Positions 1-10,143 of a DNA stretch of 10,143 nucleotides are shown one piece after another. A model generated the notes under the pieces. The model did not search any database, was not told where the DNA came from, and was given only the letters and a program-made list of their open reading frames with translations. The position numbers and the translations under genes are program-made. Position 1 is the first letter of the stretch. Each line of letters starts with the position of its first letter. Location: assembly GCA_019308705.1 (NCBI GenBank), contig JAFDHW010000055.1, positions 1-10,143 on the forward strand, given 5' to 3'. This DNA comes from Deltaproteobacteria bacterium (GTDB taxonomy: Bacteria; Desulfobacterota; Desulfobacteria; Desulfobacterales; Desulfatibacillaceae).

Positions 1-43
1 TACTTTGGTACGCCGAGCCCCGATAACGCGGCCAGCGCGGAAA

Positions 44-57
44 TCGGGCGAGCCCGA
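44..57. repeat. Short palindrome TCGGGCGAGCCCGA in the left repeat copy
   Basis: TCGGGC (44-49) and GCCCGA (52-57) are perfect 6-bp arms around GA. The right copy has the same palindrome at 10103-10116. The half-site GCCCGA/TCGGGC also forms the inner edge of the internal arms at 62-78 and 168-184, so the same hexamer occurs four times within each repeat copy. Confidence 0.8.
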
Positions 58-61
58 AGGG

Positions 62-184
62 TGAACAATTTTGCCCGAATGGCAGAATTCCTCAAATAAT
101 CAGACTGTCTTTGGAGCAAGACCCGAAAAACAGCTCCAACGGATTGAAAATAAAGAAAAATTCGATCTCGGGCAAAATTGCTCA
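62..184. repeat. Internal inverted repeat inside the left repeat copy (MITE-like core)
   Basis: Arms 62-78 and 168-184 are 17 bp each and pair with a single mismatch (65/181). The perfect core CAATTTTGCCCGA lies at 66-78 and its complement TCGGGCAAAATTG at 168-180. The 89 bases between them are AT-rich. The right copy keeps the same arms at 9975-9991 and 10082-10098 with no change, while most divergence between copies falls between the arms. Conserved terminal arms around a drifting noncoding centre are what a nonautonomous mobile element or a structured intergenic RNA repeat would show. No transposase is present and I cannot see a target duplication. Confidence 0.75.
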
Positions 185-186
185 TG

Positions 187-192
187 AATAAT
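187..192 (+). promoter_or_regulatory. Possible -10 element supplied by the repeat to the thioredoxin-like gene
   Basis: AATAAT matches the sigma-70 -10 consensus at five of six positions and would start transcription near base 199, just ahead of the ATG at 213. No good -35 box sits 16-18 nt upstream (TTCGAT at 161-166 is 20 nt away). This is a weak call. Confidence 0.2.
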
Positions 193-212
193 CCGGGTGA
201 AAGGGGCCGTTT

Positions 213-443
213 ATGGAGATCAAGATCTTGGGACCGGGGTGTGCGAAATGCAAGAAGGCGGAGGAAGTGGTCAAGGCTGCGGTTGCGGAGAGCGGCTCGG
301 ACGCGGAGGTGGTGAAGGTGACGGACCTGATGGAGATCGCCAGCCACGGGCCGCTGGCCACGCCCGCGGTGATCGTGGACGGCGAGGTGAAGGCCACGGG
401 CAAGGTGCCCAAGAAGGAGGACGTGCTCTCCTGGCTCAAGTAG
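213..443 (+). CDS. Small CXXC thioredoxin-like protein (redox-active disulfide protein 2 type)
   Basis: A 76-residue cytosolic protein with a compact thioredoxin fold of the Thioredoxin_3 / MTH895-like kind. The redox pair is C10-A-K-C13 in the N-terminal segment (GPGCAKC), directly after the first beta strand. T50-P51 supplies the cis-proline expected opposite the active site, and a VDGE turn and a final helix complete the fold. The length agrees with the family's usual 75-80 residues. The ATG at 213 follows GAAAGGGG (199-206), a usable ribosome binding site. Family members are thiol-disulfide carriers whose partners are mostly unknown; some lie next to permease genes, but here the gene stands alone between the repeat and kdsA. 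Its substrate cannot be told from the sequence. Confidence 0.9.
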   Translation: MEIKILGPGCAKCKKAEEVVKAAVAESGSDAEVVKVTDLMEIASHGPLATPAVIVDGEVKATGKVPKKEDVLSWLK

Positions 444-473
444 GTCGCAGTCGCTTGTGGCAAGGCGCGCGTG

Positions 474-502
474 TTGACATGCCGGGCGGGGCGGGGTAGC
501 TT
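474..502 (+). promoter_or_regulatory. Sigma-70-type promoter for the kdsA operon
   Basis: A perfect -35 box TTGACA (474-479) is followed by a 17-nt, very GC-rich spacer and TAGCTT (497-502) as the -10 box, with T, A and the final T conserved. Transcription would begin near 509-510, before the hairpin at 519-534. It is the most convincing promoter upstream of kdsA. Confidence 0.65.
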
Positions 503-509
503 TTCAGGC

Positions 510-572
510 ATGGCTTCACGCCGCCAAGGCGGCGTTTTTCCTTGTGCATTCCCTGGAGACAACCGGTGCTGA
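510..572 (+). CDS. Possible 20-codon leader ORF overlapping the kdsA start
   Basis: An ATG at 510, close to the predicted transcription start, opens a 20-codon frame that runs through the hairpin (519-534) and stops at TGA 570-572, seven nucleotides into kdsA. The peptide would begin MASRRQGG and end DNRC. There is no clear ribosome binding site; if transcription starts at A510 it would be leaderless. Its position over an attenuator-like hairpin is suggestive, but a short ORF like this can arise by chance. Confidence 0.2.
   Translation: MASRRQGGVFPCAFPGDNRC
519..539 (+). terminator. Hairpin plus T5 in the kdsA leader (terminator or attenuator)
   Basis: CGCCGC (519-524) pairs with GCGGCG (529-534) across a CAAG loop and is followed directly by five T (535-539). 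It could end transcription from the thioredoxin-like gene, but it also lies about 10 nt downstream of the predicted kdsA start point, so transcripts from that promoter must pass it too. That position fits an attenuator as well as a plain terminator. Confidence 0.6.
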
Positions 573-1411
573 CCATAGGCAACCTGCGGCTTGCGTTTCC
601 CCGCAAAAACCTTTTTTTCATCTGCGGCCCGTGCGTGCTGGAGGACAAGGCCCTGGCCCTGGACATAGCCGCCCGGATCAAGGAGGCGGCGGCGTCCTTG
701 GGCGCGGACGTGGTGTTCAAGGCCTCCTTTGACAAGGCCAACCGCACCAGCGCCAAGAGCTTCCGCGGCCCGGGCATGGACAAGGGGCTGTCCATCCTGG
801 CCGAGGTCAAGGAGGCCACGGGGCTTTCCGTGACCTCGGACATCCACCTGCCGGAACAGGCCGGGCCCGCGGCCGAGGTCCTGGACATGATCCAGATCCC
901 CGCGTTCTTGTGCCGGCAGACCGATCTTCTGGTGGCCGCGGGAGAGACGGGGCTTGCCGTGAACGTGAAAAAGGGCCAGTTCATGGCTCCCTGGGACATG
1001 GTCCACGCCGCGGAAAAGATCGCCTCCACGGGCAACCGCCAGATATTGTTCACCGAGCGGGGCAGCTTTTTCGGGTACAACAACCTGGTGGTGGACATGC
1101 GGTCCATCGCCATTTTGCGGGACCTGGGCCATCCGGTGGTGTTCGACGCCACTCATTCGGTGCAGCTTCCCGGCGGCGGGTCCGGGTGCTCGTCCGGGGA
1201 CCGGGAAATGGCGCCAGTGCTGGCCCGGGCCGCGGTGGCCGCGGGGTGCGACGGCGTGTTCTTCGAAGTGCACCCCCAGCCGGACCGGGCCGAGTGCGAC
1301 GGTCCCAACTCCCTGGTGCTGGCGGACCTCCCCGGGGTGCTGGAAAACCTCGCCGCCGTGCGGGCCGCCGTGGCCGGGCAGTTGAAGGTCCCGGCCACAA
1401 GGTTCAACTAG
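566..1411 (+). CDS. kdsA: 3-deoxy-8-phosphooctulonate (KDO-8-P) synthase
   Basis: KdsA condenses phosphoenolpyruvate with arabinose 5-phosphate to give KDO 8-phosphate in the cytoplasm, a committed step towards lipopolysaccharide inner core. Family blocks are all present: GPCVLE (21-26), KASFDKANRTS (52-62), SFRGPGM (65-71), then TDIHLPEQ, VNVKKGQF, the THS block, the EVHP block and CDGPNSL. C23, H197, E234 and D245 stand exactly 12 residues after the metal ligands C11, H185, E222 and D233 of the Aquifex enzyme, so this looks like the metal-dependent class. The start is GTG 566, preceded by GGAG (555-558) with 7-nt spacing; an upstream in-frame TTG (542) lacks a site. The resulting 281 residues match the family. 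It heads a tight operon with kdsC and lptC-A-B. Confidence 0.97.
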   Translation: MLTIGNLRLAFPRKNLFFICGPCVLEDKALALDIAARIKEAAASLGADVVFKASFDKANRTSAKSFRGPGMDKGLSILAEVKEATGLSVTSDIHLPEQAGPAAEVLDMIQIPAFLCRQTDLLVAAGETGLAVNVKKGQFMAPWDMVHAAEKIASTGNRQILFTERGSFFGYNNLVVDMRSIAILRDLGHPVVFDATHSVQLPGGGSGCSSGDREMAPVLARAAVAAGCDGVFFEVHPQPDRAECDGPNSLVLADLPGVLENLAAVRAAVAGQLKVPATRFN

Positions 1412-1420
1412 GACCCCGCC

Positions 1421-1969
1421 GTGAATCGTCCATCCCCCCCTTTCGTGGACCAGGCAATGGAAACCATGGCCCGGGTGCGCGCCCTTCTCCTGGACGTGGA
1501 CGGCGTGCTCACCACGGGCGAGATCACCTACGACGCCGAGGGCCGGGAGATCAAATCCTTCTACGTGCGCGACGGCCTGGGCATCCGCCTGCTGCACCTG
1601 GCAAAAATCCCCGTGGGCGTGATCACGGGCAGGGCCAGCGCGGCGCTTCGCCACCGGCTCGACAACCTGAACATCATCCACCTGGCCGAGGGGGTGTGGA
1701 ACAAGGCCGAGGCCGTGGAGCGCATGTGCGGGGACATGGGTGTGGAACCGGGGCAGGCGGCGTTCGTGGCGGATGATCTTCTGGACGTGGGAGGTCTTGA
1801 GACCTGCGGGGTTCCCCTGGCCGTGGCCGACGCCCACCCGGAGGTCATCGCCCGGGCCGCGGCCATAACCCGTTCGCCCGGCGGCAGGGGCGCGGTGCGG
1901 GAAATCTGCGAGGCCCTGTTGAAGTCTCAGGGCCTTTGGGAGCAGGTGGTTGGCAAGCTGGGCGCCTAA
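1421..1969 (+). CDS. kdsC: 3-deoxy-8-phosphooctulonate (KDO-8-P) phosphatase
   Basis: A 182-residue HAD-superfamily phosphatase that hydrolyses KDO 8-phosphate to KDO, the step after KdsA. HAD motif I is DVDGVLT (25-31), with D25 as nucleophile and D27 as acid/base. Motif II is the ITGR threonine T69, K95 is the motif III lysine, and ADDLLD (117-122) is motif IV for magnesium. There is no large cap domain, as expected for the C0-type tetrameric KdsC. The GTG start lies 9 nt after the kdsA stop, with TAGGA (1409-1413) as a binding site that includes that stop. In-frame ATG codons at residues 13 and 16 are alternative starts, since the HAD domain begins only at about residue 19. The gene's 3' end overlaps lptC by 20 nt. 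Confidence 0.95.
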   Translation: MNRPSPPFVDQAMETMARVRALLLDVDGVLTTGEITYDAEGREIKSFYVRDGLGIRLLHLAKIPVGVITGRASAALRHRLDNLNIIHLAEGVWNKAEAVERMCGDMGVEPGQAAFVADDLLDVGGLETCGVPLAVADAHPEVIARAAAITRSPGGRGAVREICEALLKSQGLWEQVVGKLGA

Positions 1970-2528
1970 AGCCGCGTTTTTCTTTTTGGCTGCCGTGGCC
2001 CTGGCGGCCGCGTCGGCCCTTCTTTTCGGGCTGGTCCGCCACGGCGGGGACGCCGACCCCTTGCCCGCTCCCGACTTCCTGCCCCCGGGCCGGGATTTGA
2101 GCCTGACGGACATCCGCCAGACCGCGGTCAAGGACGGCAAGGTCCAGTGGACGCTCTCCGCGGACAAGGCGTGGCTGGCCGAGGCCAAAAACCGGGCCCG
2201 GCTACAGGCGGTCAAGGGCGTGCTCTACCCCGGCTCCGGGGAGGGCAAACCCCTGGACCTTTCCGCCGGGGCGGCGGTCATCAACACCAAAACCAACGAC
2301 GTGAGCCTGCGGGGCGGGGTGAAGCTTTTGTATGGGTCCTATGTCCTGGAAACAGAAAGCGCCACTTACAAGGACCGGCAAAAGCGCGTCCGGGGCGACC
2401 AGCGGTTTCTGCTTTCCGGCGGCGGGCTTGTGGTGGCCGGGGACGCGTTTGTGTACGACCTGGACGCCGGCCGCGTGGTAGTGACCGGCAACGTGGAGGC
2501 CGCGATCGATGACGTGCAGACGCCATAA
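1950..2528 (+). CDS. lptC: LPS export ABC transporter periplasmic protein LptC
   Basis: LptC is the membrane-anchored periplasmic link that passes lipopolysaccharide from the LptBFG transporter to LptA. The 192-residue product has a single N-terminal membrane segment (about residues 8-30, rich in A, F, L and V). A beta-rich domain follows with short repeated strands such as a DLSAGAAVINTKTNDVSLRG block, consistent with the LptC/OstA beta-jellyroll. Sequence conservation in this family is low, so the call rests on topology, size and place between kdsC and lptA. The start is TTG 1950, chosen because GGGAG (1938-1942) is spaced 7 nt before it and no ATG or GTG lies in frame nearby. It overlaps kdsC by 20 nt and lptA by 20 nt, which implies translational coupling. 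Confidence 0.86.
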   Translation: MASWAPKAAFFFLAAVALAAASALLFGLVRHGGDADPLPAPDFLPPGRDLSLTDIRQTAVKDGKVQWTLSADKAWLAEAKNRARLQAVKGVLYPGSGEGKPLDLSAGAAVINTKTNDVSLRGGVKLLYGSYVLETESATYKDRQKRVRGDQRFLLSGGGLVVAGDAFVYDLDAGRVVVTGNVEAAIDDVQTP

Positions 2529-3048
2529 CCGGGCGTTTCTTGTCCCTGCCGTTGTTCTGTTCCTTGCCGCGGCGGCCGCCGCCCAGCAGATGGAAGCCCC
2601 GGTTCTGTTCGATTCCCGGAAGGGGCCGGTGAACATCACCTCCCAGCGGTTGGTCGTGGACAACCAGGAAAACTGGGCCGAGTTCTCCGGTCAGGTGCGC
2701 GCGGTGCAGGCGGACACGGAGGTCACCTGCGAAACCCTGCGCATCTGGTACAAGTCCGGCGGCGGCGGGGAGCACGGCCAGGAGGCCCGCTCCATCGACA
2801 GGGTCGTGGCCAAGGGAAAAGTGCGCATCGCATCGCCCCGGGTCACGGCCACGGCCCGGAAGGCCGTGTACCAGGCGGAAAGCGGGAGCCTGCTCCTTTC
2901 CGGACACCCGGTGCTGCAATCCGGCGAAAACCGGGTGTCCGGCTCCAAGATCACCCTCACCGGCGAGGGCAGGGTGGTGGTGGAAAGCGCGAAAGACGCG
3001 CCGGTCAAGGCCCGGTTCTTCCCCGAATCCGCCGAACAGGCCCCCTAG
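2509..3048 (+). CDS. lptA: LPS transport periplasmic protein LptA
   Basis: LptA oligomerises into the periplasmic bridge that carries lipopolysaccharide from LptC to the outer-membrane LptD/E complex. The 179-residue precursor has a classical signal peptide: an arginine-rich start, a hydrophobic core at about residues 10-24, and an alanine run with likely cleavage after A25 before QQ. The mature part has the OstA-like pattern: PVNITSQRLVVDNQENWAEFSG, then repeating beta strands ending in ITLTGEGRVVVES. The ATG at 2509 is served by GGAGG (2495-2499), which lies inside lptC, and the gene overlaps lptC by 20 nt. lptB follows 11 nt after the stop. LptF/LptG permeases and LptD/E are not in the window. 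Confidence 0.89.
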   Translation: MTCRRHNRAFLVPAVVLFLAAAAAAQQMEAPVLFDSRKGPVNITSQRLVVDNQENWAEFSGQVRAVQADTEVTCETLRIWYKSGGGGEHGQEARSIDRVVAKGKVRIASPRVTATARKAVYQAESGSLLLSGHPVLQSGENRVSGSKITLTGEGRVVVESAKDAPVKARFFPESAEQAP

Positions 3049-3059
3049 CAGGAAACGCC

Positions 3060-3782
3060 ATGTCCACGTTGAACCTCCATGAACTGGAAAAGACTTACGG
3101 GAAGAAGAAGGTGGTGAACCAGGTTTCCCTGTCCGTGGAAAGCGGCCGGGTGGTGGGGCTTCTGGGCCCCAACGGCGCGGGCAAGACCACCACCTTTTAC
3201 ATGGCCGTGGGCATGATCCGCCCGGACGGCGGCAGGGTGCTTTTAGACGGCGAGGACATCACCGCCGCGCCCATGCACGTGCGCGCCAGAAAGGGCCTGG
3301 GCTACCTTCCCCAGGAAAGCTCCGTGTTCCGCAAGCTCACCGCCCGGGACAACGTGCTGGCCATCCTGGAGCTTTCCGGCCTTTCCCGCGCCGAGCGCAG
3401 GCGGCGGGCCGACAACCTATTGGAGGAGCTTGGCATCCTTAAGCTGGCGGACCAGGCGGCGGTGTCCCTTTCCGGCGGGGAGCGCCGGCGGCTGGAGATC
3501 GCCCGGGCCCTGGCCTCGGGCCCCAAGTTCATGCTGCTGGACGAGCCCTTTGCGGGCATCGACCCCCTGGCCGTGGTGGAGATCCAGAACATCATCCGCC
3601 AGCTTGCGGGCCGGGACATCGGGGTGCTCATCTCCGACCACAACGTCCGGGAGACCCTGGGCGTGTGCGACCACGCCTTCATCATGAACGAGGGCCGTGT
3701 CATCGAATCCGGAAACCCGGACCACATCTCCCAGAGCCCGGTGGCCCGGCGATTCTACCTGGGCGAGGACTTCCGCTTCTAG
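3060..3782 (+). CDS. lptB: LPS export ABC transporter ATP-binding protein LptB
   Basis: LptB is the cytoplasmic ATPase that powers extraction of lipopolysaccharide by the LptFG permease. All ABC motifs are intact in 240 residues: Walker A GPNGAGKTT (36-44), Q-loop Q85, the signature LSGGERRR (137-144), Walker B FMLLDE (157-162) with D-loop AGID, and switch histidine H194 (ISDHNV). The sequences GYLPQESSVFRKL and LLDEPFAGIDP are characteristic of LptB rather than of amino-acid transporter ATPases, and the position after lptA settles the role. The ATG is preceded by AGGAAA (3050-3055). It is the last gene of the kdsA-lptB block; no convincing terminator is visible behind it, so some read-through into rpoN is possible. 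Confidence 0.97.
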   Translation: MSTLNLHELEKTYGKKKVVNQVSLSVESGRVVGLLGPNGAGKTTTFYMAVGMIRPDGGRVLLDGEDITAAPMHVRARKGLGYLPQESSVFRKLTARDNVLAILELSGLSRAERRRRADNLLEELGILKLADQAAVSLSGGERRRLEIARALASGPKFMLLDEPFAGIDPLAVVEIQNIIRQLAGRDIGVLISDHNVRETLGVCDHAFIMNEGRVIESGNPDHISQSPVARRFYLGEDFRF

Positions 3783-3896
3783 CGCCCGTGCGGTCTTCGG
3801 CCCCGGATAACACCGCCCGGGTCCCTCCCCCCTTTCCCCCGTTCTTCTCGGTTTCCGCCGATAAGTTTTTCCTCTTTTTTGGCCCCGTTCTTGCTG

Positions 3897-3919
3897 TCCG
3901 CCCCCTTGCATTTGGCGGA
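3897..3919 (+). other. Hairpin in the lptB-rpoN intergenic region
   Basis: TCCGCC (3897-3902) pairs with GGCGGA (3914-3919) around an 11-nt loop. No T tract follows, so it is not an intrinsic terminator. The 267-nt spacer (3783-4049) otherwise holds pyrimidine-rich tracts at about 3826-3880 and the rpoN promoter; I see no gene in it. Confidence 0.3.
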
Positions 3920-4014
3920 TAGAACCATAGATCGGCACCTGGAGGCCTGCGGGCGATGTTTGCGTTTCCGGGGCCGGACGCGTGCTTGCGGTTTTCTTCC
4001 CCTGGACAAGGGTG

Positions 4015-4020
4015 TATAAT
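4015..4020 (+). promoter_or_regulatory. -10 box of a promoter for rpoN
   Basis: A perfect TATAAT lies 29 nt before the rpoN ATG, so transcription would start near 4027 and leave a leader of about 23 nt. No good -35 hexamer is found 16-18 nt upstream (the region is T-rich, around TTTTCT 3992-3997), so the promoter may need an activator or rely mostly on its -10. Confidence 0.55.
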
Positions 4021-4049
4021 AAAATTTCGAGAAACAGGAACGGGACGCC

Positions 4050-5513
4050 ATGGGTCTGGAGCTTCGCCAGCAGCTTCGTTTAAGCCAGCAGCTCATCATG
4101 ACGCCCCAGTTGCAGATGGCCATCAAGCTGTTGCAACTGAGCCACCTTGAGTTGCTGGACGTCATCCGCCAGGAGATGGAGGAAAACGCCGCCCTGGAGG
4201 AAGGGGAGGAGTTCGCCGGCCCCAAGGCGGACCTGGAGCCCGGCGACGGCGAGGCGGAAGCGCCCATGGGGGCCGAGACCCCGGCCGAGCAGGAGGTGTC
4301 CGTTTCCGAGGACAGCTTGGAGAACGTGGACTGGGAGAACTTCGTGGGCGAGTACAACACGGAGTACAACTCCCCGGGGCAGATTCGTGCGGAGACCGAG
4401 GAGCAGGACGCCCCCCGGTACGAAGCCTTCATGGCCCGCAAGGAGACCTTGACCGACCACCTGTTGTGGCAGGCCATGCTCCACTTTTCCGACGAAACGG
4501 ACAAGAAGATCGCCCACGCCGTTATCTGCAACCTGGACGCCGACGGGTACCTGAAGGCCACCACCGGGGAGGTCGCCCATCTGCTTTCCGTGGAGGCGGA
4601 GCAGGTGGAGGCCGTGCTGGGCGAACTCCAGCAGTTCGACCCGCCCGGCGTGTGCGCCCGGAACATCTCCGAGTGCCTCCTCATCCAGGCCCGCCAGCTG
4701 GGCGCGGACACTCCCCTGGTGAAGAACATCATCACCAGGTGGATGAACCACCTGCAGAACAGGAACTACAAGGCCATCGCCCAGGCCGCCAAGGCGCCCC
4801 AGGGCCAGGTCCGGAAGGCCGTGGCCGCCATTTTGTCCTTGGAGCCCAAGCCCGGCCGCGTGTTCTCCGAGGAAGAACCCCGGTACATCACTCCGGACAT
4901 CTACGTGTACAAGGTGGGTGACGAGTACGAGATCGTGCTGAACGACGACGGGATGCCCAAGCTGCACGTCTCGCGCTTCTACCAGGAGGCGCTCTCCAAG
5001 GACGGAGAATTGAGCGACGAGGCCAAGGCCTACGTGAAGGGAAAGCTTCGGTCCGCGGCCTGGCTCATCCGCAGCATCCACCAGCGCCAGCGCACCATCT
5101 ACAAGGTGATGGAGAGCATCCTGAAGTTTCAGAGGCCCTTTTTCGACAAGGGCATCGCCCACTTAAAGCCCATGGTGTTGAGGGAGGTGGCCGAGGACAT
5201 CGGCATGCACGAGGCCACCATCAGCCGGGTCACCACCAACAAGTACGTGCACACCCCGCACGGCATTTTCGAGCTCAAGTTCTTTTTCAACAGTTCCATC
5301 AAGCGGGTGCACGGCGAGGCCATCGCCAGCGCCAGCGTGAAGGAAAAGATCAGCCGGATCGTGAAAAACGAGGACCCGTCCCGGCCTTACAGCGATGAGA
5401 AGATCATGGAACTTTTGGCGGCGGAAAATATCCGGATCGCCAGGAGGACGGTGGCCAAGTATCGGGAAGCCCTCGGGATACTGCCATCCGGAAAGCGGAA
5501 ACAACTTGCCTGA
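4050..5513 (+). CDS. rpoN: RNA polymerase sigma-54 factor
   Basis: Sigma-54 directs RNA polymerase to -24/-12 promoters that need AAA+ enhancer-binding proteins; its regulons include nitrogen metabolism, motility and envelope functions. The 487-residue protein has the glutamine- and leucine-rich activator-interaction region I (about 1-45, QQLRLSQQLIMTPQLQMAIKLLQLS), an acidic region II (about 46-110), the core-binding domain, a helix-turn-helix around residues 378-400 (TISRVTTNKYVHTP) and the RpoN box ARRTVAKYRE (464-473), which reads the -24 element. Length is normal. The ATG follows AGGAA (4036-4040). The partners hpf, ptsN and rapZ downstream are the standard rpoN neighbours; the enhancer-binding activators are elsewhere. 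Confidence 0.98.
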   Translation: MGLELRQQLRLSQQLIMTPQLQMAIKLLQLSHLELLDVIRQEMEENAALEEGEEFAGPKADLEPGDGEAEAPMGAETPAEQEVSVSEDSLENVDWENFVGEYNTEYNSPGQIRAETEEQDAPRYEAFMARKETLTDHLLWQAMLHFSDETDKKIAHAVICNLDADGYLKATTGEVAHLLSVEAEQVEAVLGELQQFDPPGVCARNISECLLIQARQLGADTPLVKNIITRWMNHLQNRNYKAIAQAAKAPQGQVRKAVAAILSLEPKPGRVFSEEEPRYITPDIYVYKVGDEYEIVLNDDGMPKLHVSRFYQEALSKDGELSDEAKAYVKGKLRSAAWLIRSIHQRQRTIYKVMESILKFQRPFFDKGIAHLKPMVLREVAEDIGMHEATISRVTTNKYVHTPHGIFELKFFFNSSIKRVHGEAIASASVKEKISRIVKNEDPSRPYSDEKIMELLAAENIRIARRTVAKYREALGILPSGKRKQLA

Positions 5514-5516
5514 AAA

Positions 5517-5532
5517 CCTGGTTTCAGCCAGG
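5517..5532 (+). other. Small hairpin behind rpoN
   Basis: CCTGG (5517-5521) pairs with CCAGG (5528-5532) around TTTCAG, starting 3 nt after the rpoN stop. No T run follows directly; the first T-rich tracts lie at about 5593-5598 and 5614-5620. It may be a transcript-end stabiliser or nothing. Confidence 0.25.
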
Positions 5533-5625
5533 ACTGTGCACCACACCAGCGCCATGGCCCATGCGTCCGGGCGCAGCCGTTCCTCTTTATTGCCTTTTTT
5601 CCAAGAAGACAGGTTTTTTTCCCCA

Positions 5626-5675
5626 CCCCGCCGCGGGCGGGGACGCGCGTTGGGCCGCGCGGTCTTGGGCGGCCC
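5626..5675 (+). promoter_or_regulatory. Cluster of strong, partly exclusive GC hairpins in the hpf leader
   Basis: Three perfect stems crowd into 50 nt. CCCCGCC (5626-5632) pairs with GGCGGGG (5636-5642). CGCGCG (5644-5649) pairs with CGCGCG (5656-5661). GGGCCGC (5652-5658) pairs with GCGGCCC (5669-5675). The second and third share bases and cannot form together. The last is followed by GTCCTTCTTTTCC, a broken T-rich tract, and then by the hpf ribosome binding site AGGGAGG (5695-5701). It could be a terminator behind rpoN or a regulatory leader of hpf. Confidence 0.45.
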
Positions 5676-5705
5676 GTCCTTCTTTTCCTAATACAGGGAG
5701 GCGTC

Positions 5706-6245
5706 ATGCACACATCGATCACCTTCAAGAACCTGGACCCCTCGGATGCCTTGAAGTCCTACGTGTCGGAGAAGTTAAACCGGTTTGACCGGTACCTGGA
5801 CAGCATGGCCGAGGCCGCTGTGGTGCTTACGGTGGAGAAGTTCAGGCACTCGGCGGAGATCACCCTGACCGGCGACAAATTAAGCGTAAACGCCAAGGAG
5901 GAGAACCAGGACATGTACTCGGCCATCGACCGGGTGCTGGACAAGGTGGAAAAGCAGGTAAAGAAGCTCAAGGAAAAGAAGCGGAACAAGAGGACCCACA
6001 AGGCGCGCAACCAGAGGCGCCAGGAGGAGCGGAGCCGGGAGTCCGCCGGTCCCCGCGCGGACGGCGTGCGGCACATTTCCATCGAAACCATCGAATACAA
6101 GCCCATGGACGTGGACGAGGCCATCCTCCAGATGGACCTGGTGGAGGACGAATTCATGGTGTTCACGAACTCCCGCACCGATCGGGTGAACGTGCTCTAC
6201 CGCAAAAAGGACGGCAGCATGGGGCTCATCGAACCCGCGGCCTGA
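5706..6245 (+). CDS. hpf: Ribosome hibernation-promoting factor, long form
   Basis: Long HPF binds the 30S subunit at the decoding centre and pairs ribosomes into inactive 100S dimers in starved cells. The 179-residue product has an N-terminal HPF/YfiA domain (about 1-95, with the HxSAEITLTGDKLSVNAKEE strand region and AIDRVLDKVEKQVKKLKEK helix). A very basic linker follows (about 90-118, KKRNKRTHKARNQRRQEERSRE), and a C-terminal dimerisation domain (about 120-179: ISIETIEYKPMDVDEAILQM ... RVNVLYRKKDGSMGLIEP) completes it. The second domain separates it from the short HPF of enteric bacteria. The start has an excellent ribosome binding site, AGGGAGG (5695-5701). A strong terminator follows, so hpf seems to be the last gene of its transcript. 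Confidence 0.97.
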   Translation: MHTSITFKNLDPSDALKSYVSEKLNRFDRYLDSMAEAAVVLTVEKFRHSAEITLTGDKLSVNAKEENQDMYSAIDRVLDKVEKQVKKLKEKKRNKRTHKARNQRRQEERSRESAGPRADGVRHISIETIEYKPMDVDEAILQMDLVEDEFMVFTNSRTDRVNVLYRKKDGSMGLIEPAA

Positions 6246-6251
6246 GCGCGA

Positions 6252-6265
6252 GGCGGCGCACCGCC
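6252..6265 (+). other. Small GC hairpin just behind hpf
   Basis: GGCGG (6252-6256) pairs with CCGCC (6261-6265) around CGCA, shortly before the main terminator. It may help to protect the transcript end; no separate function can be assigned. Confidence 0.3.
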
Positions 6266-6279
6266 GACATGACATGGTG

Positions 6280-6322
6280 AGGGGGAGTCTTCCCTTTGGG
6301 GACGGACTCCCCCTTGTTGTTT
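6280..6322 (+). terminator. Rho-independent terminator of hpf
   Basis: AGGGGGAGTC (6280-6289) pairs perfectly with GACTCCCCCT (6305-6314). The loop folds further, TCCC (6291-6294) against GGGA (6299-6302). The stem ends in TTGTTGTTT (6314-6322). This is the clearest intrinsic terminator in the window and separates hpf from ptsN. Confidence 0.85.
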
Positions 6323-6419
6323 ACAGGGTAACCGTTTGCCTTCCCCGGCGTACCGGACATCGAATACCTGGCGGGAGAGGGGGTTTTCTTTTTGCCCGGG
6401 CCGTGTTACGAGATTTCGT

Positions 6420-6434
6420 TCTCCCCAGGGGAGA
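6420..6434. promoter_or_regulatory. 15-bp palindrome upstream of ptsN, possible operator
   Basis: TCTCCCC (6420-6426), a central A, and GGGGAGA (6428-6434) form perfect 7-bp arms, 64 nt before the ptsN ATG. The 175-nt stretch between the hpf terminator and ptsN must hold the promoter of the ptsN operon; a weak candidate is TTGCCT (6336-6341) with TCGAAT (6360-6365) at 18-nt spacing. The palindrome has no T tract and so is better read as a DNA site than as a terminator, but no regulator can be named. Confidence 0.35.
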
Positions 6435-6497
6435 GGAATGGACCCCCAAACCGCGCACAGGCTGTTTTGCGCGTAAAAAAACCGCGGATCGTTGCTG

Positions 6498-6956
6498 ATG
6501 AGAATTCTTGACAAACTGGACCCGTCCGCCGTGCTTTGCGACCTGAAGGCGCGGGACAAGAAGGGCGTGATCGAGGAACTGGCCGGGCCTGTGGCCGACA
6601 TCGCCAAGGTGCCCAAAGAAAAGCTGGTGAAGGTGCTCCTGGAAAGGGAACGCCTGGGCTCCACGGGCATCGGCGGGGGCATCGGTATCCCTCACGGAAA
6701 GATGCGGGGCATCGAGGACCTGCTCCTGGGCTTCGGGGTGAGCAGACAGGGGGTGGATTTCGATTCCATGGACGGCAAGCCCGCGCACCTGTTTTTCCTC
6801 CTGGTCACCCCGGAAGACTCCGCCGGCCTGCATCTTTCCATGCTGGCCCGCATATCCCGGCTGCTGAAGAACGACCTCTTCCGGGAAAGCCTGCTAAACG
6901 CCGAGAATCCCCGGAAGGTCCTGGAGATCATCGGCGAGGTGGACGAGGATTTTTGA
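6498..6956 (+). CDS. ptsN: PTS IIA-like nitrogen regulatory protein (EIIA-Ntr)
   Basis: EIIA-Ntr is the terminal phosphoacceptor of the nitrogen PTS. Phosphate passes from PEP through EI and an HPr-like carrier to a histidine here, and the protein regulates rather than transports. In the 152-residue product the active-site histidine is H66 in IGGGIGIPHGK, and the LLERERLGSTGIG block before it is typical. It is a lone EIIA domain of the PTS_EIIA_2 (fructose/mannitol) fold, with no transporter attached. ATG 6498 is preferred, with GGA (6485-6487) about 10 nt upstream; the in-frame TTG at 6492 would add two residues. EI and HPr are not in the window. The stop overlaps the rapZ start by 4 nt. Confidence 0.95.
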   Translation: MRILDKLDPSAVLCDLKARDKKGVIEELAGPVADIAKVPKEKLVKVLLERERLGSTGIGGGIGIPHGKMRGIEDLLLGFGVSRQGVDFDSMDGKPAHLFFLLVTPEDSAGLHLSMLARISRLLKNDLFRESLLNAENPRKVLEIIGEVDEDF

Positions 6957-7855
6957 CGGCCCAGAACCTGGAAATCATCATCATCACCGGGCTTTCCGGG
7001 TCGGGCAAGAGCACGGCCCTGGCAGCCCTGGAGGACGCGGGCTATTATTGCGTGGACAACCTGCCTGTGGCGCTTTTGCCCAAGTTTCTGGAGTTGCCCA
7101 CCGAATCCGTGGCCGGCGTGAGCAAGCTGGCCTTTGTCATGGACCTGAGGGAAAAGGGCCTGCTCCAGTCGTACAAGACGGTGTTCGACCAGCTGGCCCG
7201 CCAGGGTTTCGAACCCTTCATCATCTTCCTGGAGGCAGGCGACGAGGAGCTCTTGCGGCGGTATTCCGAAACCCGCAGGCAGCATCCCTTGTCCGGCGGG
7301 GAGGGCGTGGCCGCGGGCATCCGCAGGGAAAGGGAGCGCCTGGAGGTGCTGCGCCAGGCGGCCAACCGGGTCATCGACACTTCCCGCACCAACGTCCATG
7401 AGCTGAAGGCCCACATCATCGACGTGGTGGGCAAGAACGCCCCGGCCTCGCGGCTTAAGATCCACGTCACCAGTTTCGGGTTCAAATACGGGGTTCCCAG
7501 GGAGGCGGACCTTGTCATGGACGTCCGGTTTTTGCCCAATCCCTATTTTATGCCCGAGTTGAAGGAACTTTCCGGGGAGGACGCGCCCGCCAGGGAATTC
7601 GTGCTGTCCAGGCAGGAAAGCAGGGAGTTTCTCGAGCGGTTTTACGCGCTTTTGGATTACCTTTTGCCCATGTACGAAAGGGAGCGCAAATCCTATCTGA
7701 CCCTGGCCTTTGGATGCACCGGGGGCCGTCACCGCTCGGTCACCATCGCCGCGGAAGTCAGCCGGCACATCCAGGAGCAGGGCAGGGAAGCGACCCTGAT
7801 TCACCGGGACTTGCGCCCCGCGGACGCGGACCGGGGTACGGAAGAGAACCTATGA
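6953..7855 (+). CDS. rapZ: RNase adapter / nucleotide-binding protein RapZ (YvcJ family)
   Basis: In enteric bacteria RapZ binds glucosamine 6-phosphate and delivers the small RNA GlmZ to RNase E, controlling amino-sugar supply for the envelope; elsewhere the role is less known. The 300-residue product has Walker A GLSGSGKS (13-20), then the GYYCVDNLP block, a basic middle (RRYSETRRQHPL), VTSFGFKYGVPREADLVMDVRFLPNPYF, and the C-terminal GCTGGRHRS loop (254-262). The start is TTG 6953, whose first bases form the ptsN stop (TTGA), with GAGGTGG (6936-6942) as ribosome site. Starting upstream would overlap ptsN heavily and add unrelated sequence. Its place behind ptsN is the widespread rpoN-cluster arrangement. 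Whether it acts on an RNA here is unproven. Confidence 0.96.
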   Translation: MTAQNLEIIIITGLSGSGKSTALAALEDAGYYCVDNLPVALLPKFLELPTESVAGVSKLAFVMDLREKGLLQSYKTVFDQLARQGFEPFIIFLEAGDEELLRRYSETRRQHPLSGGEGVAAGIRRERERLEVLRQAANRVIDTSRTNVHELKAHIIDVVGKNAPASRLKIHVTSFGFKYGVPREADLVMDVRFLPNPYFMPELKELSGEDAPAREFVLSRQESREFLERFYALLDYLLPMYERERKSYLTLAFGCTGGRHRSVTIAAEVSRHIQEQGREATLIHRDLRPADADRGTEENL

Positions 7856-8274
7856 TCGGAATCGTCGTAGTAACCCACAGCCAGCTGGGACAAGCCCTCC
7901 TGGACGCCGCGGGGTTTGTCCTGGGCCAGCCCGTGGAGCAGGCGAAAAGCGTTTCGGTGGATCTTAAGGAATCCGCCTCCAAGCTGCGCAAGGACATCGG
8001 CGCGGCCATCAAGGAAGTCAGCGCCCAACAGGGCGTGCTGGTCCTGACGGACATGTTCGGCGGCACCCCCTCCAACCTGGCGTACTCCTTTCTGGAGGAG
8101 GGGAGGGTGGAAGTCATCTCCGGGGCCAACCTGCCCCTGCTCATCCGGGCGGACAACCTGCGGCGGCGAAAGAACCCGGACCTGAAGGATCTGGCCCAGG
8201 AGCTGGAAGAATACGGCAAGAAGAGCATCTGCCTGGCTTCCGGCATGCTCAAAGGCAAAAAGACCGCCGGATGA
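7852..8274 (+). CDS. PTS mannose-family EIIA component, stand-alone
   Basis: A 140-residue EIIA-Man fold protein, which receives phosphate from HPr on a histidine. H9 in VVTHSQLG is the phosphorylation site, matching H10 of the E. coli IIA-Man domain. D67 in the DMFGGTPSN block (67-75) is the companion aspartate. The length equals one IIA domain, with no IIB fused and no IIC or IID in the window, which points to a regulatory or incomplete phosphorelay rather than sugar uptake. The start overlaps the rapZ stop as ATGA, so translation is likely coupled. A pairing of EIIA-Ntr and EIIA-Man around rapZ is seen in Desulfobacterota-type rpoN clusters. No gene symbol is secure. Confidence 0.93.
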   Translation: MIGIVVVTHSQLGQALLDAAGFVLGQPVEQAKSVSVDLKESASKLRKDIGAAIKEVSAQQGVLVLTDMFGGTPSNLAYSFLEEGRVEVISGANLPLLIRADNLRRRKNPDLKDLAQELEEYGKKSICLASGMLKGKKTAG

Positions 8275-8729
8275 ACGGGCGGTTTTCCGTGCGTCCCCTG
8301 AAGCCCGGGGACCTGGACTGGGTGGTCGAGCTGGAACAGGCCGCCATGAAAAGCCCGTGGAACAAGGCGCTGTTCGCCTCGGAACTGGAACGCGAAGACT
8401 CGGTTTGCCTGGCGGGACTGGCAAGGGAGCGGGGGAAAGAAGAACCCGCGGCCTTTGCTTTTTCCCGGATTCTGATGAACGAGATGCACCTTTTGCGCCT
8501 GGCCGTGGCCCCCCGGTTCCGCGGCCGGGGGCTGGGCCGGCTGTTGACCAGGAAAAGCCTGGCCAAGGCGGCGGCCAAGGGGGCGGACACCGCCTGGTTG
8601 GAGGTGCGCGAGTCCAACACCGCCGCCCAGGCCATGTACCGGGCCGAGGGGTTCGATCGGGTGGGCACCAGGCGCAGCTACTACCATGACACCCGTGAGG
8701 ACGCGGTGATCATGTTCAGGCGCATCTGA
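8271..8729 (+). CDS. rimI: Ribosomal protein S18-alanine N-acetyltransferase family (GNAT)
   Basis: A 152-residue single-domain GNAT acetyltransferase. The N-terminal SPWNKALFASEL segment (28-39), the acetyl-CoA loop RFRGRGLG (82-89), and the end RRSYYHDTREDAVIM are the hallmarks of RimI, which acetylates the N terminus of ribosomal protein S18 from acetyl-CoA. E111 and Y123 are 12 residues apart, as are the catalytic E103 and Y115 of E. coli RimI. The start overlaps the EIIA stop as ATGA, so it is the fourth gene of the ptsN unit. A broader N-terminal acetylation role, as in some RimI homologues, cannot be ruled out. A T6 tract (8771-8776) behind an imperfect stem may mark the operon end. 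Confidence 0.9.
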   Translation: MNGRFSVRPLKPGDLDWVVELEQAAMKSPWNKALFASELEREDSVCLAGLARERGKEEPAAFAFSRILMNEMHLLRLAVAPRFRGRGLGRLLTRKSLAKAAAKGADTAWLEVRESNTAAQAMYRAEGFDRVGTRRSYYHDTREDAVIMFRRI

Positions 8730-8785
8730 CGGATTCGCCGCCACGAAAACCAGGCTCCGTGGATTCCGAGTTTTTTGGGGAGAAG

Positions 8786-8822
8786 GGCCGGGAGGGAGCC
8801 CGGCCGCGGGCGCTTTGCCCGC
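8786..8822 (+). other. Tandem perfect GC hairpins between rimI and gap
   Basis: GGCCGGG (8786-8792) pairs with CCCGGCC (8799-8805) around AGGGAG. Immediately after it, GCGGGC (8806-8811) pairs with GCCCGC (8817-8822) around GCTTT. No T run follows, so they are not classical terminators. They lie in the 227-nt spacer that must also carry any gap promoter; I could not find a convincing -35/-10 pair there. Confidence 0.5.
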
Positions 8823-8915
8823 AAGACATCTACAACCTGCCGGTTGCCGCCGGGAGGCCGTGGCTTTTTTGCACAAGCCCGTGCGCCGGAGGCGGCAAGG
8901 CCGGAATTTGCTGGA

Positions 8916-8941
8916 CCCGGCGGCGGTTCGCCGGGCCTTTT
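8916..8941 (+). terminator. Hairpin plus T4 just upstream of gap (terminator or attenuator)
   Basis: CCCGGCG (8916-8922) pairs perfectly with CGCCGGG (8929-8935) around GCGGTT, followed by CC and four T (8938-8941). Only 6 nt later the gap ribosome binding site begins (8948). The T run is short, so termination may be partial. The arrangement resembles the leaders of hpf and kdsA. Confidence 0.5.
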
Positions 8942-8956
8942 GAACAGGGAGGTCCA

Positions 8957-9961
8957 ATGAGCACGAAAGTGGCGATCAACGGGTTTGGAAGGATCGGCCG
9001 GCTGTTTTTCCGGGCGGCCCAGAAAACGGACGGCCTCGAGGTGGTGTCCATCAACGACCTCATGGATCCCGCCACGCTGGCGCATTTGTACAACTACGAC
9101 TCGGTCCACCGCCGGCCGGACCAGCCCGCCGAGGCTGTTGAAGGAGGCATCAAGGTGGGCGGCAAGACCATTCCCGTGACCTCGGAGAGAAACCCCGCGG
9201 ACCTTCCCCACAAAAGCCAGGGGGTGGACATAGTCGTGGAATCCACCGGGCTTTTCCGCGAGCGGGACAAGGCCGCGGGCCACCTTTCCGCGGGCGCGAA
9301 AAAGGTGCTCATCTCCGCGCCGGCCAAGAACCCGGACTTCACCGTGGTCCTGGGTGTGAACCACGAAGACTATGACCCGGAAAAGCACCACATCATCTCC
9401 AACGCCTCCTGCACCACCAACTGCCTGGCGCCGGTAGCCAAGGTGATCATGGACACCTTTGGCATCGAAAAGGGGCTCATGACCACCACCCACGCCTACA
9501 CCGCGGACCAGCGGCTTCTGGACGCCCCGCACAAGGACCTGCGGCGCGCCCGGGCCGCGGCCCTGTCCATGATTCCCACCACCACGGGCGCGGCCAAGGC
9601 CGTGGCCCTGGTGCTGCCCCAGCTGGAAGGAAAGCTCAACGGCTTCGCCATCCGCGTGCCCACCCCGGACGTGTCCCTGGTGGACCTGGTGGTGCACACC
9701 ACCAGGGCCCCCGCCAGCGCCGACGAGGTGAACGCGGCCCTGAAGGAGGCCGCCGAAGGCCCCTTGAAGGGCATCCTGGGCTTTTCCGACGAGCCCCTGG
9801 TTTCCATGGACTACACGGGTTGCCCGCTTTCCTCCATCGTAGACGCAGGCATGACCTACACCATCGGCGACCTGGTCAAGGTGTGCTCCTGGTACGACAA
9901 CGAAACCGGGTACGCCACCCGCCTGGCCCAGTTGGCCGCGCTGGTGGGAAAAAGCCTCTAA
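8957..9961 (+). CDS. gap: Type I glyceraldehyde-3-phosphate dehydrogenase
   Basis: GAPDH oxidises and phosphorylates glyceraldehyde 3-phosphate to 1,3-bisphosphoglycerate with NAD(P), and works in reverse in gluconeogenesis. The 334-residue protein has the Rossmann start INGFGRIGR (7-15), the catalytic SCTTNC with C152, and the base H179 (TTTHAY). The S-loop reads DQRLLDAPHKDLRRAR, and the C-terminal WYDNETGYATR is intact. D34 after the second strand favours NAD, while A190 in DAPHK, where NAD-specific enzymes often have leucine, makes the coenzyme preference less certain. The ATG at 8957 follows GGGAGG (8948-8952 region), so the long in-frame extension upstream is not coding. The stop codon shares its last base with the right inverted repeat. 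Confidence 0.98.
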   Translation: MSTKVAINGFGRIGRLFFRAAQKTDGLEVVSINDLMDPATLAHLYNYDSVHRRPDQPAEAVEGGIKVGGKTIPVTSERNPADLPHKSQGVDIVVESTGLFRERDKAAGHLSAGAKKVLISAPAKNPDFTVVLGVNHEDYDPEKHHIISNASCTTNCLAPVAKVIMDTFGIEKGLMTTTHAYTADQRLLDAPHKDLRRARAAALSMIPTTTGAAKAVALVLPQLEGKLNGFAIRVPTPDVSLVDLVVHTTRAPASADEVNAALKEAAEGPLKGILGFSDEPLVSMDYTGCPLSSIVDAGMTYTIGDLVKVCSWYDNETGYATRLAQLAALVGKSL

Positions 9962-10143
9962 CCCGGATTATTCATGAGCAATTTTGCCCGAGATCGAATT
10001 TGTCGTTAGTTTCAATCCGTTGGAGCTGTTTTTTTGGGTCTTGCGCCAAAGACGGTCTGATTATTGGAGGAATTCTGCCATTCGGGCAAAATTGTTCACC
10101 CTTCGGGCTCGCCCGATTTCCGCGCTGGCCGCGTTATCGGGGC
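9961..10143 (-). repeat. Right copy of the long inverted repeat, cut by the window end
   Basis: This is the reverse complement of 17-198, with seven base differences and one single-base indel. Most differences are A in the left copy against C here when both are read in the left orientation. The repeat begins on the last base of the gap stop codon (TAA, 9959-9961), so no spacer separates gene and repeat. The match runs to the final base of the window, so the outer boundary is not seen. The copy includes a T7 tract (10029-10035) that could assist transcription termination behind gap, though no compact stem sits immediately before it. Confidence 0.95.

Follow-up and report, generated by a model that had tools for sequence, protein, structure and literature searches.

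Inverted repeats around a kdsA-gap gene block as probable copies of a dispersed miniature element with a covarying folded module

Known miniature elements and the present locus

ERIC and BOX are structured interspersed repeats that are conserved across related genomes, BOX being modular, and they resemble the repeat described here by description only. Miniature inverted-repeat transposable elements (MITEs) with resident parents, MITEs with long stems and, in Coxiella, a bias towards the 3' ends of genes are already on record. The present report concerns the window, a 10,143-nucleotide stretch from a Deltaproteobacteria bacterium (assembly GCA_019308705.1, contig JAFDHW010000055.1) whose two ends form the arms of an inverted repeat around a block of co-oriented genes. 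Both arms are very probably copies of a dispersed MITE with IS1380-type ends; the contig would have broken inside both copies, and their facing arrangement would be accidental.

Three described systems come closest. Like the element of the window, MITEAba12 (PMC6382973) is short, non-coding and dispersed, with target duplications and with terminal inverted repeats common to a resident insertion sequence (IS), ISAba12. It differs in its 9-bp duplication without a sequence trend, compared with 4 bp at YTAR and an IS1380-type parent here, and its 90 copies over all genomes surveyed fall far below the copy number reported below. QMITE1 and QMITE2 of Coxiella burnetii (PMC5896051) likewise combine many copies with stable predicted folds, although one family reaches up to 78 copies, compared with 322 termini here. 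All functional annotated genes affected by these elements carry the insertions at their 3' ends, a preference called unexplained in that account, whereas the YTAR target of the present element can itself contain a stop codon. MITEPye1 of Paracoccus yeei (PMC11578231) also has IS-like terminal repeats, a long predicted stem-loop and mostly intergenic positions; it differs in being attributed to IS1182 and in having only 1-3 copies per chromosome. A literature search of titles and abstract openings, with most subscription journals and all of bioRxiv outside its scope, found no published description of the present element or of its folded module.

The arms and their dispersed family

Positions 17-197 of the window align with the reverse complement of 9962-10143 at 174 matches, 7 mismatches and 1 gap (95.6%; 174/182 aligned positions), with perfect runs of 77 and 41 positions at the two ends of the alignment. 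The inverted-arm segments are 17-130/10030-10143 and 126-204/9955-10033. This realignment agrees with an earlier sequence-only reading, which had noted reverse-complementary ends about 96% identical, with 77 and 41 bp perfect. That the match extends to the final base follows from the contig itself: the window is all of C265, which stops at base 10143, in a draft genome of 500 contigs and 2.84 Mb. Compared with the complete copy in locus L009, window base 1 corresponds to base 58 of a 254-bp unit and window base 10143 to approximately base 73. Each arm is a copy of this ~254-bp MITE that the contig end has cut short.

The genome contains well over a hundred copies of this small mobile repeat. 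The first 204 window bases match at least 45 stretches of it, a figure for which only 40 of 326 candidates were scored, and the terminal 13-mer CCCGGATTATTCA occurs as an exact match 322 times (139 forward and 183 reverse), compared with none for a reversed-pattern control. Among 58 relatives the 13-mer is found 0-5 times per genome, so that it is present at all in 15 of 59 genomes when this one is counted; in the relatives the control pattern has a single occurrence, in G057. The difference between 322 and 0-5 termini per genome points to a MITE burst specific to this species within the 59-genome sample. A dispersed intergenic family had been the more cautious alternative in the sequence-only reading, and the genome search suggested there indeed finds many scattered copies rather than a block-specific pair.

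A complete unit lies at 1180-1433 of L009 and reads CTAG + CCCGGATTATTCA...TGAATAATCCGGG + CTAG. Perfect 4-bp duplications flank 16 of 27 full-length candidates, and 11 of the 27 have none that is perfect; 23 are 146-277 bp long, within a whole range of 55-295. The element is short and without a transposase gene, has terminal inverted repeats, target duplications and a high dispersed copy number, and shares its ends with an autonomous IS, all of which are features of MITEs. Because the contig ends inside both arms, the repeats could also be taken for assembly duplications rather than real copies. This is extremely improbable, as other contigs contain complete copies in their interior, with different flanks and with 4-bp duplications that match, and other genera harbour diverged relatives of the element. 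Short-read assembly would fail at true copies, and contigs would therefore begin and finish inside them. Among 49 readable contigs of 80 sampled by number, 30 of 98 readable contig ends run off inside an element, which suggests that the bracket is a place where the assembly broke, much as had been proposed from the sequence when the match was seen to run to the final base.

The arms do not appear to be a special pair. The two arms share 93.9% identity across the right module, compared with a median of 95.4% for 29 copies (from 30 loci, one of them incomplete). Of 406 copy pairs, 293 equal or exceed the arms in similarity, and among the 28 other copies each arm has its partner in 23rd or 24th place. 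By this comparison the arms are two of many copies, neither specific to the block nor each other's closest. These figures bear on the proposal that the repeat is an invertible switch, in which exchange between the arms would turn the 9.76-kb block around and alter the outside transcription that reaches it. Long inverted repeats of ~96% identity are present and such repeats can recombine in principle, but the genome contains these ends 322 times. The arm pair is less alike than most copy pairs, and there is thus no sign of repeated exchange between the arms. Gene order is moreover conserved in relatives, in a comparison that covers the interior of the block only. Recombination between inverted copies is possible in principle for every such pair in the genome and equally so for each. 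The inversion raised in the sequence-only reading is very improbable, given that the arms are not closest copies and that the order between them is common to relatives, and the block has presumably not been flipped. Two copies facing each other around kdsA-gap would reflect the chance of landing sites.

The family comprises elements of 149, ~254 and ~226 bp plus mixtures of these, with common ends and exchanged interiors. Classified by end, the fetched data contain 56 of type A, 37 B, 24 C, 14 D, 9 E and 2 F, with 15 others. In L022 (1414-1534), the 5' module is inverted between the outer stems, as if recombined across the stem. In four loci (L002, L013, L029 and L030) the element is immediately followed on its right by another right end, which starts with ATAAATATTTTATTCGGTGAAATTTTTCATG... 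or a similar sequence, continues into a terminal repeat and is either nested or an alternative end. A 29-base right-end pattern gave 0 matches in a set of named genomes, to which the genome studied here possibly does not belong.

Target sites and stop codons

Insertion appears to occur mostly at YTAR, with those four bases duplicated. The outward 4-mers at 150 distinct ends are CTAG (28), TTAG (26), TTAA (25), CTAA (23) and others (48), and the duplicated target is mostly one of the four YTAR forms (CTAG, CTAA, TTAG, TTAA). Since YTAR contains TAG or TAA, an insertion can hit a stop codon and restore it. This is what would have happened at gap, which terminates in CTAA, with the element starting at the next base.

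The stop codon of the adjoining gene falls exactly within the 4-bp site at 35 of 150 ends, and at 8 of 43 ends of number-sampled contigs. At 0 of 74 ends facing the 3' end of a gene does a stop codon lie 1-6 bases from the site. Among YTAR ends, 29 of 102 include a stop codon, compared with 13.5 expected from unoccupied non-coding YTAR sites, an approximately twofold excess (p = 0.007, 0.003 and 0.023 for three motif groups). This background was built with a codon-score gene caller of our own, for which the 13 window genes served as the training set, and uses unoccupied sites only, so that most of the pattern may reflect target choice together with the loss of harmful insertions and the survival of harmless ones. 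Such landings point to a way in which a compact genome could bear this element load, because a YTAR duplication rebuilds the stop codon that it hits.

Stop-codon targeting was also considered as a trait of the IS1380 clade and is not supported there: 4 of 43 ends of IS relatives from other genomes have an open frame of at least 100 codons ending at the duplication, compared with 41 of 766 controls (Fisher p 0.21).

The resident IS1380-family element

The genome search turned up a single PF13701 transposase, on contig C34. It scores 409 bits with NF033539 (IS1380; cut-off 180) and 517 bits with PF13701 (cut-off 34.7). The IS that encodes it is bounded on the left by CCCGGATTATTCA, identical to the MITE, and on the right by TGAATAATGCGGG, which has one mismatch. 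This transposase most likely moves the MITE in trans, as judged from the nearly identical ends.

A scan of named genomes yielded 53 loci with IS1380 relatives from several phyla. Similar ends, all picked by the terminal repeat alone, are present at 31 of the 53. CTAG adjoins 33 of the 57 ends on their outer side, and perfect 4-bp duplications flank 16 of the 26 cases in which both ends were placed. Similar ends, CTAG and duplications in IS1380 relatives support the view that the MITE borrows an IS1380-type transposase. For IS1247, another member of the family, a target duplication of 5 bp is listed (PMC3281130).

Adjoining the IS1380 element in L081, from ~2150 onwards, is a stretch with the look of a transposase remnant of IS200/IS605 type.

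The folded 5' module

The 5' ~110 bases of the element form a folded module, and diverged elements of the same plan are found in G001, G003, G006 and G016. A structure-blind alignment of 16 modules (A1), its rows chosen without any covariance model, contains 31 predicted pairs, 11 of them changed on both sides. In this alignment 97.2% of cells pair, compared with 89.9 +/- 0.6 in shuffles, and 33 cells show double changes, compared with 8.1 +/- 2.3. The signal is lost when the partner is slid, in a comparison tilted towards the structure by its derivation from the same rows. A second structure-blind alignment (A3) of 27 rows, 26 of which are matches of covariance model R1, has double changes in 25 of 35 pairs and 133 double-change cells, compared with 35.1 +/- 5.6.

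G-U pairs far exceed A-C mismatches, at 54:3 in A1 and 111:8 in A3. The constant G-U pair of the 3' mini-hairpin supplies many of them, and without this hairpin the ratios are 38:3 and 79:8. As G-U pairs would be A-C mismatches on the opposite strand, one strand appears to be favoured as the folded one. Such strand-specific pairing would not be expected of a double-stranded cruciform, though single-stranded DNA might show it. Among the unpaired bases, AAGG and much of an AACGC strand show little or no variation. The predicted fold of a full copy has an energy of -122 kcal/mol (z -9.85). Searches of the window, a set of 7 loci and a set of 8 loci against Rfam 15 returned no family at its gathering score and weak sub-threshold matches only, one of which, RF01581, overlaps a copy in L287 (31 of 70 bits).

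Model R1 detects the module at E <= 0.001 in 179 of 389 genomes of the order, representing 84 of 150 genera; nine candidates were scored per genome, and five of the matched genomes supplied the model. The distribution is patchy, as 210 genomes of the order have no match, including 5 of the 8 other members of the same family. Model R2, which omits the terminal repeat, detects the module in 31 genomes of a phylum-wide draw of 395, and 24 of these 31 lie outside the order. In 220 kb of other loci, its one negative control, R2 gives 0 matches. A fitted alignment of R2 matches (28 rows) still covaries, although it leans to the model by construction. The inverted repeat of the window is ordinary and explained; less ordinary beneath it are the species-specific MITE burst among 59 genomes and a strongly covarying domain that lies outside Rfam 15 and is detected in 84 of 150 genera of the order.

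Ends were examined at 27 R2 loci, 23 of which come from outside the order. At 15 of them, 14 from outside the order, the module sits within a pair of 12-base inverted repeats that differ at no more than one position, and at the other 12 no such pair was found. Eleven of the 15 enclosed elements are 255-261 bases long, and their terminal letters differ (CCTAAATCCTGC, CCTAAACGTTGC, CCCGGATTATGC and others). Because the module is combined with several terminal repeats, it would be an exchangeable module rather than the remnant of one IS. It is found in 0 of 54 transposase-bearing loci, some of which are partial; this is the same 220-kb search that provides the negative control for R2. Four pattern matches in viral contigs were not confirmed by R1 at E 0.1, and one 300-base query gave no match in plasmids.

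Tentatively, the module may be an undescribed, conserved and exchangeable structured RNA domain that is carried on MITEs across the order and beyond and kept because it acts as RNA. On this reading its G-U pairs would mark one strand as selected in single-stranded form, and the loop bases AAGGC / AACGC would be conserved along with the covarying stems. Its RNA might be bound by a host or transposition protein, or might shield the transcripts in which the element lands. An alternative source of the covariation is palindrome repair, in which template switching between the arms of the palindrome would produce paired changes without any function. Mobile palindromes can be corrected towards perfect pairing, and three further observations that favour repair also weigh against an RNA role. 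The elements show no orientation bias to neighbouring genes (27 are read into the 5' end and 36 into the 3' end, p 0.31). The three 149-bp copies that were found lack the module and have perfect duplications, so that insertion does not require the module in cis. The third is the patchy distribution described above. Repair towards identity would remove G-U pairs and A-C mismatches alike, which is at odds with the excess of G-U, and the AAGG loop bases and much of the AACGC strand are held. Palindrome repair without function is accordingly a rather unlikely account of the module. Should the domain work as RNA, transposition would have distributed a structured RNA widely, and the many natural copies make its function testable.

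The absence of an orientation bias (27 compared with 36) also led to the rejection of the whole element as a sense-strand 3' untranslated region element. Consensus scans of a full copy with its flanks gave neither a terminator nor a promoter. Within the first 560 window bases there is one promoter-like match, at 71-100 (+) in the left arm and directed towards the thioredoxin gene (9/12; mean of 0.0 in shuffles).

Genes of the block and their order in relatives

Thirteen co-oriented genes lie between the arms, the number given in the sequence-only reading: an ArsE-type thioredoxin, kdsA, kdsC, lptC, lptA, lptB, rpoN, hpf, ptsN, rapZ, PTS IIA, rimI and gap (Table 1).

Table 1. Coordinates of the elements, sites and genes of the window
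Feature	Positions	Strand	Remarks or basis
Beta-type MITE copy whose 5' part is cut off where the contig starts	1..197	+	Corresponds to unit bases 58-254
Conserved folded 5' module, its 3' part: inner hairpin, CCCCGATAACGCGGCC strand, 3' side of the outer stem, mini-hairpin GCCCGAAGGGT	1..64	+	Comparison with full copies
Terminal inverted repeat TGAATAATCCGGG; outward flank TGAA instead of the usual YTAR	185..197	-	Sequence
ArsE/MTH895-type thioredoxin; 15 bases separate its start codon and the left element	213..443	+	
kdsA-kdsC-lptC-lptA-lptB-rpoN-hpf-ptsN-rapZ-PTS IIA-rimI-gap; order common to relatives, outside the element	542..9961	+	
YTAR target site CTAA; TAA at 9959-9961 is the gap stop codon	9958..9961	+	Sequence
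Terminal inverted repeat CCCGGATTATTCA	9962..9974	+	Sequence
Beta-type MITE copy, cut short where the contig stops; approximately unit bases 73-254	9962..10143	-	Copy comparison

The order from rpoN to gap is conserved in all eight fetched regions of relatives, with PTS IIA unmatched in G005 and G008. From kdsA to gap, three of the eight are collinear (G004, G005 and G007), and in three others (G001, G003 and G008) the contig stops near lptB or rpoN. The core of the block (rpoN-gap) is thus old, and its upstream half common to some genera only. This collinearity bears on a further proposal of the sequence-only reading, that kdsA-gap is carried as a composite transposon between two mobile ends. 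Each arm does have a transposase-type terminal repeat. With kdsA-gap collinear in three and rpoN-gap in all eight relatives, however, the block would not be recent cargo, and no transposase is present among the 13 window genes or in either arm. The right arm also adjoins a YTAR site of its own, in which the gap stop codon lies. A composite transposon is therefore improbable in the extreme, and the arms read better as separate elements, each with its own terminal repeat.

Downstream of gap, a tpiA-like gene is present in five of the six relative regions inspected there (G001, G002, G004, G005 and G007), which we take by eye to encode triosephosphate isomerase; in G006 our own gene caller called no gene 3' of gap.

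Several observations count against the view that the arms are dispersed copies set by chance around a native gene block. The outward 4-mer of the left arm, TGAA, is outside the YTAR rule, and a target duplication is not visible for either window copy, as the far ends of both arms lie beyond the contig. In the resident IS, the right end deviates at one position, and the flanks, TTAA and CTAA, do not match perfectly. The contigs of G002 and G006 extend upstream of lptB or rpoN without kds or lpt genes there, so that the upstream half of the block is not identical everywhere. Of the 80 sampled contigs, 31, all <3 kb, read as N (within the ranges C200-C239 and C330-C350); searches of the genome can therefore miss genes, and the counts given here are lower bounds. 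Finally, tpiA was not found in the searchable part of the genome, probably owing to the masked short contigs.

Other observations

The ArsE-type thioredoxin gene (213-443) adjoins kdsA only in this genome among those checked. It is on a different contig from kdsA in the four relatives with kdsA located (G001, G004, G005 and G007) and on a different contig from rpoN in the other four. In G004, G005 and G007, a divergent gene lies upstream of kdsA; its product looks to be an M23-type peptidase, and its best match in the genome studied here is on contig C76.

Two RNA-family matches lie apart from these subjects. A sub-threshold match to RF02625 is located at 88-270 of L031, outside the element (39.4 of 65.3 bits, E 5e-5). 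On contig C346 of the same genome as the window, L137 contains at 12477-12547 a match to the group II intron domain RF00029, at 45.3 bits compared with a gathering score of 40.

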